NCBI GenBank assembly: GCA_000495735.1
Contig: AYMD01000001.1
Coordinates: forward strand, 1 to 64,000
Length of the DNA stretch: 64,000 nt
Direction: 5' to 3'
From: an uncultured Acidilobus sp. JCHS
GTDB taxonomy: Archaea > Thermoproteota > Thermoprotei_A > Sulfolobales > Acidilobaceae
Below the pieces are notes generated by a model that saw only the letters and a list, made by a program, of their open reading frames with translations, was not told where the DNA came from and made no database searches. This document shows, piece by piece, positions 16,705 to 19,910 of this stretch. Made by a program: the position numbers and the translations under genes. The first letter of the stretch is position 1, and each line of letters opens with the position of its first letter.

Positions 16705-17871
16705 TCAGATGTGTGTGCCGAAGAGCTGCCTCCTCTTCTCTATCCTGTTCCTTACCTTGTCGATGGCCCTTATGAAGTGCTCCTGCGTCACATACTTCAT
16801 GCCCTCCCTTATGGCGAAGAAGCCGGCCTCCGTGACTACTGCCTTTAGCTCAGCCCCCGAGAACCCCTCAGTGAGTGCGGCCACCTCCTCTAGGTCGACG
16901 TCCTTAAGCTTCATGCTCCTCGTGTGTATCCTCAGTATCTCGACCCTTCCCCTCTTGTCGGGCAGGGGTACCTCTATGAGCCTGTCGAACCTGCCCGGCC
17001 TGAGGAGGGCCGGGTCCAGGAGGTCTATCCTGTTGGTGGCGGCCACCACCTTAACCCCCTCGAGTGGGTCAAAGCCGTCCAGCTCGGCCAGCAGCTGAAG
17101 CATGGTCCTCTGCACCTCCCTGTCGCCGCTGGTGCCTATGTCAACTCTCCTGGCCCCTATGGCGTCTATCTCATCGATGAATATTATCGAGGGCCTCCTC
17201 TCCCTCGCGAGCCTGAAGACCTCCCTGACTATCCTGGCCCCTTCGCCGATGAACTTGTTCACGAACTGGCTTGCGACGACCCTTATGAACGTCGCCTTGA
17301 CCTCACCTGCGAGCGCCCTGGCGAGCAGCGTCTTGCCGGTCCCAGGGGGCCCGTAGAGGAGGACCCCCTTTGGCGGCTCCACGCCTATATCGGCGAACAG
17401 CTCCGGCTTTATCAGGGGCAGGCCCACGACCTCGTAGAGCTCCCTGACCTGGCTCTCCAGGCCCCCGACGTCAGAGAACGTGACGGTGGGCCTCTCCTCT
17501 ATCTCCATGGCCTCTACCAGCGGGTCATGGATGGAGGGCAGCACCTCAACTATCGTGGACCCCTTGTTGTTGAGGGCCACTGAGGCGCCTGGACGAAGCT
17601 TGCTCACGTCAACGTTAGCCGAGATCCTTACCACCAGGTTGGGCCCTGTGGAGCTCTTAACCACGGCGCGGCCGTCAGGGAGAACTTCGAGGACCATGGC
17701 CTCTATGTAAGGCGGTTCCAGCAGCTTGTTGAGCTCCTGTTTGTAGAACTCTAGGTCCCTCTCAAGGGTCGCGTTAAGCTGTGTAAGGTACCTAATTCTC
17801 TCCCTGAGAACGGCAAGGTCGTCCTCCTCAGGCCTATCCTTAGCTGCCTTCCCAGGCTCGCTTAGAGACAC
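16705..17871 (-). CDS. pan: Proteasome-activating nucleotidase (PAN)
   Basis: 388 residues; AAA+ unfoldase that feeds the 20S proteasome. N-terminal coiled coil (about 20-60), OB domain ([20 protein letters not shown]), AAA domain with [15 protein letters not shown] (Walker A), [11 protein letters not shown] (Walker B), the arginine-finger region [17 protein letters not shown] and a C-terminal helical lid. GTG start. The C-terminus is RRQLFGTHI and lacks the usual HbYX (for example LYR) docking tail. A TATA-like CTTAAAAGTT lies about 35 bp upstream. Convergent with the methyltransferase gene. Confidence 0.92.
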
Positions 17872-17959
17872 GAGCTCCCCTAACTTTGATCGTTGGCCAA
17901 ACTTTTAAGAAGTGAGGCCCGCAGTGACATTACGTTAACTCCCCAGTATAAACTGTAAC

Positions 17960-18120
17960 GAGCGCTACTACTACCTCCTGAGGGCTCCCTAGGCCAGTTC
18001 TGGGGTGCCGGAAGGGCGTAATACCCTGACCATTATACAAACAGTATTACTAATAAGTGTATAACAGTTCTCTGAGGGCTCCCTAGACGGGCAATAATTC
18101 GGGCTCGTAGTAATAGTAGC
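17960..18120. other. Candidate replication origin next to the WhiP-like gene
   Basis: The 257-bp gap between the PAN start and the end of the WhiP-like gene holds two identical 15-bp elements, CTGAGGGCTCCCTAG, at 17978-17992 and 18072-18086 (94 bp apart, about nine helical turns). Each contains the small dyad AGGG-CT-CCCT. Between them is an AT-rich tract (about 18031-18064) bordered by the inverted pair TTATACA (18033-18039) and TGTATAA (18058-18064). Outside them are GCTACTACTAC (17964-17974) and the loosely complementary GTAGTAATAGTAGC (18108-18121). Paired elements flanking an AT-rich core beside whiP is the layout reported for Sulfolobus oriC-3. No clear Orc1-type ORB element is seen. 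Confidence 0.45.
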
Positions 18121-18128
18121 ATTGCTGC

Positions 18129-18875
18129 TCAGCGACCATGACCACAGGTAGCCAGCACTTCCTTAGCGACCTTAGAAAAGCCGACCCTTATGCCAAGCCT
18201 TGGGTCCGTATAGATATAAACTATGCCCTTGCTCTGCAGATCCCTGACCCTTCTAATGAGCCACTCGTAGTCGGCCTTGAGCCTCTCCGCGAGCTGGTCC
18301 AGGTACATGTAAGTAACGCCGTACATAGTGTAATGCGACAACATCTCCATAACGACCTCCGTCTCCTCGTCCGTGAGCCTGTCCTTAAGAGACTGCAGCA
18401 CGCAGGCGGCCACAGAGGCCCTGTTTCCTTGTTGTTTCTTGTCTGGCCTTTCTGTAAGCTCTGCAATGAACGACTGGGATTCGTCCGCAACGTCTGCGCG
18501 CGGGGCCCTCGCCTTGTTGTTTCTTGTCTGGCTTAACCGTGAAGCTATCCTCTGGGCCAGCGTCACGAACTCGTTAAACCTCTCATCCGTCTCCCTCTCA
18601 GCGATCTGCCTTGCGTACTCCTCACCCTTGGGGGTCAGGTACCATAGGCCCAGGTCGTAGTCGACGTACCCCCTGTCCTTCCAGTACGAGAGGTAGCTCG
18701 ATATGTACTTGGCCTCCTTGCCCAGGACCTCCCCTATCTCCGAGGACCTCATAGGCCTTGAGAGAAGGAGCACAAGTATCGCGTCGACAAGCCTGCTCCT
18801 GGGACCACCTCTGCCCCTGAGCGCGTTCTCTATGACCCTGTCGACCTCACTCTGGCCCTTGCTAGCCTTGCTCAA
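18129..18875 (-). CDS. WhiP-like double winged-helix protein (candidate replication initiator)
   Basis: 248 residues. N-terminal winged helix at about 24-88 (SRLVDAILVLLLSRPMRSSEIGE, then YISSYLSYWKDRGYVDYDLGLWYLTPKGEEYAR). A low-complexity, charged linker spans about 95-155. A second winged helix spans about 160-240 (MYGVTYMYLDQLAERLKADYEWLIRRVRDLQ, then SKGIVYIYTDPRLGIRVGFSKVAKEVL). Two winged helices and a linker match the crenarchaeal WhiP initiator, a Cdt1-like origin protein, but assignment is by architecture and location. The linker-coding DNA contains a 21-bp direct repeat read in two different frames. TTG start. The adjacent origin-like region supports the call. Confidence 0.6.
   Translation of the reverse strand: MSKASKGQSEVDRVIENALRGRGGPRSRLVDAILVLLLSRPMRSSEIGEVLGKEAKYISSYLSYWKDRGYVDYDLGLWYLTPKGEEYARQIAERETDERFNEFVTLAQRIASRLSQTRNNKARAPRADVADESQSFIAELTERPDKKQQGNRASVAACVLQSLKDRLTDEETEVVMEMLSHYTMYGVTYMYLDQLAERLKADYEWLIRRVRDLQSKGIVYIYTDPRLGIRVGFSKVAKEVLATCGHGR
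18427..18532. repeat. 21-bp direct repeat pair inside the WhiP-like gene
   Basis: The 21 bases from 18427 to 18447 (CCTTGTTG...TGTCTGGC) recur without change at 18512-18532, 85 bp apart. Since 85 is not a multiple of three, the same DNA encodes QTRNNKA in one copy and PDKKQQGN in the other. Identity is therefore at DNA level and not from protein constraint. Confidence 0.85.
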
Positions 18876-19030
18876 ACCGGCCCCGCGCTGTCATTGTCCT
18901 GGAGGCGAATTCCTAGAGGAGGGTCCGTAATACTGACCTTTCCGACCCAGTTGACGAGGAGCCCCAAGTCACAACCCCCTTAGGTAATGAAGGCCAGCGT
19001 TAGGCCGACGGACCTCCTCAAGCGACCTTG

Positions 19031-19675
19031 TTAAACCGGGGAGTTAACAGAGCTGCAGTCCCTATAGGCGAGCTGAATCACAGCGCCCATGAGCTCACGT
19101 GAGCAGCCCTCGGGCACTATTATCAAGGCGCCTTCGTCGTAAGGGCTATCAACAGTTATCGAGCTTACTATGGTTGACCTCAACTCGCACGGCATGCCAG
19201 GAAAGTCGATGACTCCCTCTTCCAGGTAGCCGATAAGGGAGAGCCTACACCCCCTTGCGACCAGTTCATCCCTGATGGCATAGACCTCCGTGAGCTCCCT
19301 AGGCGGCCTGACCGGTAGGACCGTAAGGAAGCACCTCTCGAACCCCTTAACCTGCGGAAGCGAGCAGGGCCTCAGGGTTGTAATGGAGGTCAAGGCCTTC
19401 AGGACGGCAGCGCCTTTCTCCGTCAACGACCTGCCCCTTTTGGTCCTGACCACCAGGCCCTCTCTCTCAAGCCTATCAAGCAGCGTCCTCGCCGAGGCCT
19501 CCCCTATTCCAAGGTCAGAGCTCAGCGAGAGGCGCCCCGCCTCCCCACGGGATATCCTCCTCAGGGCCTCGAGCGCGTGCCACTCGGTGAAGGCCGGGGC
19601 GCCTCCCCTCTCAGTTGCTATCACTCTCCTCAGGCTCCCTAGGGCCTCGCAGGCCTCTCGCGACAGGTACGACAT
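19031..19675 (-). CDS. Winged-helix regulator with DUF4443-like domain
   Basis: 214 residues. The N-terminal half is a MarR/PadR-style winged helix (TEWHALEALRRI, LGIGEASARTLLDRLEREGLVVRTKRGRSLTEKG). The C-terminal half (about 100-205: LPVRPPRELTEVYAIRDELVARGCRLSLIGYLEEGVIDFPG) resembles the archaeal DUF4443 ligand-like domain. It probably binds DNA in response to a small molecule, not identified. Its first 65 bp overlap the upstream 99-residue ORF; alternatively it starts a little later. Likely co-transcribed with that ORF. Confidence 0.7.
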   Translation of the reverse strand: MSYLSREACEALGSLRRVIATERGGAPAFTEWHALEALRRISRGEAGRLSLSSDLGIGEASARTLLDRLEREGLVVRTKRGRSLTEKGAAVLKALTSITTLRPCSLPQVKGFERCFLTVLPVRPPRELTEVYAIRDELVARGCRLSLIGYLEEGVIDFPGMPCELRSTIVSSITVDSPYDEGALIIVPEGCSRELMGAVIQLAYRDCSSVNSPV

Positions 19676-19910
19676 CCCAGGCCCCCTCGTCAGGCTCCAC
19701 CCCCATGCTTATCATGAAGGCCGCCAGGTCCTGCGGGAGGACCTCGTCGGAGTCCACCACGGCCTTAATTACGTCGTCCCACGACCTTCTGACCCTTATG
19801 CCAAAGTCCTCCCAGAGCCACTCAACGAACTCCTCTAGGTCTATGCGTCCCTTCGCCTGGCTCATAAGTGAGGCCTTCGTGGCCCTTTCCCTCGCCTTGT
19901 TCCATTTCAA
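19611..19910 (-). CDS. Small acidic hypothetical protein
   Basis: 99 residues, not recognised. A helical central part (DLEEFVEWLWEDFGI, then WDDVIKAVVDSDEVLPQDLAAFMISMG) suggests a small folded domain. No signal peptide or metal site. A TATA-like CCTAAATAGGC about 35-40 bp upstream supports expression. It overlaps the following regulator gene by 65 bp, so one of the two starts may be mis-set. Could be a partner of that regulator. Confidence 0.45.
   Translation of the reverse strand: MKWNKARERATKASLMSQAKGRIDLEEFVEWLWEDFGIRVRRSWDDVIKAVVDSDEVLPQDLAAFMISMGVEPDEGAWDVVPVARGLRGPREPEESDSN

Follow-up and report, generated by a model that had tools for sequence, protein, structure and literature searches.

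The window analysed here is the first 64,000 nucleotides of contig 1 of Acidilobus sp. JCHS, an uncultured archaeon whose 1.48 Mb genome is assembled in 13 contigs. Within it, a 257-bp gap (17872-18128) lies downstream of a whiP orthologue (18129-18875, minus strand), which encodes a protein of 248 residues with the layout winged helix, disordered linker, winged helix, and upstream of the gene for a proteasome-activating nucleotidase (PAN; 16705-17871, minus strand). The gap between the 3' end of whiP and the PAN gene is the predicted core of a WhiP-type origin, and this core is kept beside whiP in relatives. A gene for another winged-helix protein (19031-19675, minus strand) is the neighbour of whiP in most relatives; it is overlapped by a small gene (19611-19910), and both adjoin whiP in most relatives, changes of orientation notwithstanding. 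The gap and whiP are together bracketed by a palindromic element, GTTAACTCCCCRGTTWAAC, in inverted orientation, with GTTAACTCCCCAGTATAAA on the left (17934-17952, plus strand) and GTTAACTCCCCGGTTTAAC on the right (19030-19048, minus strand), and in locus L005 the pair is perfect over 21 bp. This element occurs in about 20 copies genome-wide (21 sites at 3 or fewer mismatches, against 1 in a reversed control) and is also present near the ORB-flanked region described below.

The gap contains an A+T-rich tract (18030-18064) that is, by its composition, a probable duplex-unwinding element (DUE). The tract has 23% G+C in a window of 57% G+C, and only 0.12% of 35-bp stretches match its A+T-richness. 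An earlier note on this DNA had reported the tract, two identical 15-bp elements, CTGAGGGCTCCCTAG, at 17978-17992 and 18072-18086 (94 bp from start to start), and two outer elements, GCTACTACTAC at 17964-17974 and GTAGTAATAGTAGC at 18107-18120, all of which are present as described. It had also paired TTATACA at 18033 with TGTATAA at 18058-18064 as inverted arms. Both arms are there, but TGTATAA is not kept in relatives, and the pairing had split a conserved 10-mer, TTATACAAAC (18033-18042, plus strand), which we identify as the ucm. The extended conserved core around it, TTATACAAACRGTAWTA, reaches 18049. The ucm was recognised by its position and recurrence rather than by a letter match to the published 11-bp ucm.

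Alignment of relatives shows that Acidilobaceae gaps keep the arrangement GTAATAC-N8-TTATACAAACRGTAWTA, with TACTACTAC as the left flank and a sequence of the GTAGTA type as the right one. In the window, GTAATAC lies at 18018-18024 (plus strand), eight bases to the left of the ucm. The left flanking element, TACTACTAC (17966-17974, plus strand), is matched with at most one mismatch in 23 of 40 loci (mean 1.4 mismatches, against 3.1 in shuffles), and its inverted partner on the right, GTAGTAATAGTAGC (18107-18120, plus strand), in 25 of 40 (mean 1.2 against 3.1). Both are candidate initiator contacts. Inverted TACTACTAC/GTAGTA elements bracket the core from Acidilobaceae through Sulfolobales, where whiP orthologues likewise adjoin a ucm-bearing gap, although the orientation of the ucm relative to whiP is opposite to that seen here.

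The same alignment divides the repeats of the earlier note, because the outer TAC/GTA elements are conserved whereas the 15-mer is not. The note had named lack of conservation in close relatives as a refutation, and on that rule the outer elements stand and the 15-mer falls. The 15-mer had been put forward as the ucm, in copies flanking the A+T-rich core, but in published descriptions the ucm sits at the centre of the AT-rich DUE and is itself flanked by ORBs (PMC3718332, PMC12141716). CTGAGGGCTCCCTAG is absent from the gaps of three relatives of the same genus, which keep the ucm and the outer elements. As a ucm it fails conservation both between relatives and between origins, and the central conserved element is instead TTATACAAAC. 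The 15-mer pair, both copies on the plus strand, is not due to chance, since none of 3,000 shuffles of the gap contained any repeated 15-mer, but it is private to this genome and sets the locus apart from the Sulfolobus oriC3 and Aeropyrum pernix origins. That it is the true initiator site of Acidilobus sp. JCHS, having replaced ancestral sites, would fit its presence in exactly two copies in the 1.48 Mb genome, one on either side of the ucm; its absence from three congeneric gaps that retain the ucm and outer elements makes this very unlikely.

The location of the gap directly upstream of the PAN gene, and the conservation of a TATA-like TTTTTAA near the PAN start, could also mean that the gap is a promoter or regulatory region for PAN and that its repeats are transcription factor sites. 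This we consider very unlikely. In some genera of relatives PAN was not found next to the core within the fetched flank, and there the ucm core and its flanks nevertheless remain with whiP. The core is, moreover, some 95-250 bp away from the PAN start, and the ucm recurs between ORBs, in the setting described next.

The 10-mer TTATACAAAC is found between inverted ORBs upstream of Orc1-1 genes in Metallosphaera javensis and Aramenus, at the oriC1 of Sulfolobales. A scan of the whole chromosome of a closed sister genome (1,496,453 bp; G003) returned only two exact copies, one at 292347 in the whiP gap and the other at 1057604, between ORBs such as GCTCCAGAGGAAACGGAGGGGTGT. An exact short motif is thus common to the ORB-type and WhiP-type origins of the sister genome. 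Around its second copy (1057204-1057804) ORBs lie near 1057413, 1057472 (inverse) and 1057708 about a strongly A+T-rich tract. The genome under study (G000) has a similar region on contig 2 (C2:345140-345480), where four ORB-like elements surround an AT tract with TTATACAAAA, a one-mismatch copy of TTATACAAAC. This region, which does not adjoin an Orc1 gene, is probably an ORB-type second origin of the genome, to judge from its sequence; no ORBs were found beside the two Orc1 genes of this genome. The predicted origin in the whiP gap shares with the ORB-type oriC1 of Sulfolobales and Acidilobus the inverted flanks around an AT tract and the central ucm, and differs in that the flanks are TACTACTAC/GTAGTA elements rather than ORBs.

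The second exact TTATACAAAC of the genome under study, at C9:85109, is in the promoter region of two divergent genes, one sufC-like (the sufC/sufB-like side) and the other radical-SAM-like. It was rejected as an origin on the grounds of this promoter setting and the lack of ORBs, and is possibly a non-origin site for the ucm-binding protein, UBP. A protein of the sister genome matches PDB 9EFD (E 1.6e-10), which is UBP (PMC12141716), and the orthologue in the genome under study is 67% identical to it. Both genomes encode an orthologue of the protein partner in the ucm/UBP module of Sulfolobus origins, and the short element is central in the unwinding tract at both predicted origins here, as in that module. 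The exact 10-mer is rare in Acidilobus (two per genome) in comparison with the more than 300 UBP sites of Sulfolobus (PMC12141716).

The gene adjoining the gap, described earlier as WhiP-like, is a WhiP orthologue: identities run from 40 to 74% between Acidilobaceae and Sulfolobales, with a single strong match per genome. Searches of Pfam and NCBIfam gave no family for WhiP, and no credible relative was found among PDB sequences. In an AlphaFold model, residues 114-147 have pLDDT below 50 and connect two winged helices, whose relative arrangement is not reliable at a pTM of 0.41. Foldseek searches with this low-pTM model returned MarR-like winged helices only.

An A+T-rich tract with a central ucm thus adjoins a whiP orthologue, a combination characteristic of WhiP-type origins. 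The Sulfolobus oriC3 and the equivalent WhiP-dependent origin of A. pernix likewise combine whiP with an adjacent AT-rich region that has the ucm at its centre and no canonical ORBs, and no canonical ORB was found in the window at up to 5 mismatches. They also share a second, ORB-type origin elsewhere on the chromosome, which is predicted here, and differ in that the core here lies between whiP and PAN. In A. pernix, a member of the same family, marker frequency identified exactly two active origins, one of the Orc1-1 type and one of the WhiP type (PMC10769869), and its whiP-side region is homologous to the locus. The two strongest GC-skew switches of the sister genome at the 150-kb scale, at 274821 and 1060850, lie 17.5 kb from the TTATACAAAC site in the whiP gap and 3 kb from the ORB-side one. 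The whiP-side switch is modest, with 8-21% of genome positions, depending on scale, scoring as high as the exact site; at 17.5 kb from the gap, it would be indirect support for bidirectional initiation there. We therefore consider it very likely that the locus is a WhiP-type (oriC3-type) chromosomal replication origin, as the earlier note had proposed in calling it oriC-3-type, and that this Acidilobus-like archaeon also has one ORB/Orc1-type origin. As an origin, it would extend the WhiP type by a new member and refine the anatomy of that type.

A search for repeats revealed a 21-bp exact repeat within the whiP coding sequence itself, with its copies 85 bp apart. Because 85 is not divisible by three, translation reads the two in different frames (SQTRNNK and DKKQQG). 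They belong to an array of three elements, R1 (GACAAGAAACAACAA; 18514-18528, minus strand), R2 (inverted and degenerate here, TGCAATGAACGACTG; 18462-18476, plus strand) and R3 (GACAAGAAACAACAA; 18429-18443, minus strand, 85 bp from R1). The consensus of the array, GRCAAKAAACNRCAA, contains two CAA half-sites one helical turn apart. Counted along the whiP coding sequence, R1 lies forward at 0, R2 inverted at +52 and R3 forward at +85, a geometry kept in about 50 of 57 genomes. When 121 spacings were compared in 57 whiP genes from many genera, 85 bp was uniquely the best in 29, where 0.5 would be expected were all spacings equal; with the set thinned to 24 genes of less than 60% identity, it was still uniquely best in 9. 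Since 52, 33 and 85 bp correspond to nearly 5, 3 and 8 helical turns, respectively, the sites would lie on roughly the same face of the DNA. Within the genus Acidilobus R2 is weak, with 3-5 mismatches. In Ignisphaera-type lineages, and in a few others, the array as a whole becomes indistinct.

Several observations show that the array is constrained as DNA. Each element is in a different frame or on a different strand, and the near-invariant bases are nonetheless identical across R1-R3 despite the differing codon phases. R2 encodes an SFI(V/A) motif and sits at exactly +52 in about 50 of 57 genomes; its 2.6 mismatches compare with 5.2 after synonymous shuffling, which does not explain the array. 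Wobble usage is skewed, indicating constraint at the DNA level: all 35 Thr codons in R1 are ACA, compared with 184 of 516 (36%) elsewhere, and all 40 Ser codons in R2 are TCA or TCG, compared with 27% elsewhere. R1 and R3 agree within a genome at 13.18 of 15 positions, compared with 11.78 when re-dealt among genomes (maximum 12.39 in 2,000 trials), a statistic somewhat inflated by relatedness. In five genomes the exact element has only two copies genome-wide, both in whiP. Most of the array encodes residues 114-147, the predicted disordered linker between the two winged helices. On the structural model, the fixed DNA sites thus occupy a coding stretch in which the protein sequence is apparently free to change. 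The array lies about 390-500 bp from the ucm. The gap shows no significant occurrence of the full element overall, with 10 of 57 reaching p≤0.1, although Aeropyrum and some others have half-like sequences, TTTCTTGTC, to the left of the ucm.

Because R2 is an inverted copy, it could pair with R1 or R3 as alternative hairpins, and the array might then be an RNA element of the whiP mRNA. An R2:R3 hairpin does form in one Aeropyrum sequence. Folding energies in four species are, however, no better than those of shuffles (z -0.7, 1.4, 0.4 and -1.1), and covariation is stronger for R1-R3 (z 6.9) than for R1-R2 (4.2) or R2-R3 (1.9), the opposite of what a hairpin requires. In the window, R1 and R3 are identical and R2 is the degenerate member. 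The RNA hairpin is supported by neither folding energies nor covariation, and we consider it unlikely.

A stronger competitor is that the array controls the expression of whiP, rather than the origin, through the binding of another factor (an Orc1 protein, a nucleoid protein or a repressor). The position of the array inside the gene, at its distance from the ucm, is compatible with this, as is the binding of three Orc1/Cdc6 proteins of S. solfataricus to oriC3 (PMC5333045). In several genomes the element is found nowhere but in whiP, which speaks against a general regulator, and it does not resemble an ORB. On balance this reading is possible, at clearly less than even chances. WhiP itself is the simplest ligand on account of the position and exclusivity of the array, and its two winged helices could be matched to the two half-sites. 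We judge the prospects that WhiP is the ligand of R1-R3 to be evenly balanced. The array may serve as an origin contact, in autoregulation, or in both.

The iterons of phage lambda are repeats embedded in the gene of the initiator itself, in the stretch coding for the link between its domains. The lambda ori lies inside gene O (PMC6022878), and offers the nearest functional parallel to the array, as a likeness rather than shared membership of a class. The two have in common repeated DNA elements in the linker-coding part of an initiator coding sequence. They differ in that the unwinding tract lies outside whiP here (18030-18064) and within gene O in lambda, and in that the whiP repeats, known here from sequence alone, are two direct and one inverted at fixed distances, unlike those of lambda. 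WhiP and lambda O showed no sequence relationship in the comparisons made. We tentatively propose, with somewhat less than even confidence, that WhiP-type initiators carry candidate initiator-binding iterons within their own coding sequence, as lambda O does, and that the array belongs to the origin, as a remnant of the captured extrachromosomal replicon that gave rise to oriC3. No WhiP relatives were found in viral contigs, plasmids or phages, and extrachromosomal ancestry thus gains no direct support from that search. Nor did a search limited largely to openly accessible papers turn up a report of sites within whiP. If the proposal is true, the deletions of whiP made to establish WhiP dependence may have removed cis-acting origin DNA from those strains as well.

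These features suggest how the predicted WhiP-type origin might work. Within the A+T-rich unwinding tract, the ucm, TTATACAAAC, is probably where the UBP orthologue binds, and the inverted TACTACTAC/GTAGTA elements on either side are candidate initiator contacts. WhiP, with its two winged helices, probably recognises DNA at the gap, and may also or instead recognise the R1-R3 array; Sulfolobus is the only case in which WhiP binding has been seen at this type of locus, by ChIP (PMC5134839). WhiP, possibly together with Orc1 proteins, would engage the flanks and the intragenic array. UBP, whose role at the ucm was established in Sulfolobus (PMC12141716), would mark the ucm in the AT tract, where the strands would open and from where MCM would leave. 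The array could either help to assemble the initiator complex, through a DNA loop of about 400 bp, or adjust the expression of whiP. The sequence anatomy, its conservation, the fixed geometry of the array, its constraint as DNA and the recurrence of the ucm at both predicted origins are direct observations, whereas firing of the origin, binding of UBP and WhiP at this locus, and the role of the array are inferred.

The analysis predicts a second origin of the Acidilobus chromosome and narrows the anatomy of WhiP origins to a few blocks that are common to several orders. The array provides a concrete candidate recognition sequence for WhiP or a partner, and with it a test of the capture hypothesis for the multiple origins of archaeal chromosomes. 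It also carries the warning that deletions of whiP may remove origin DNA in cis.
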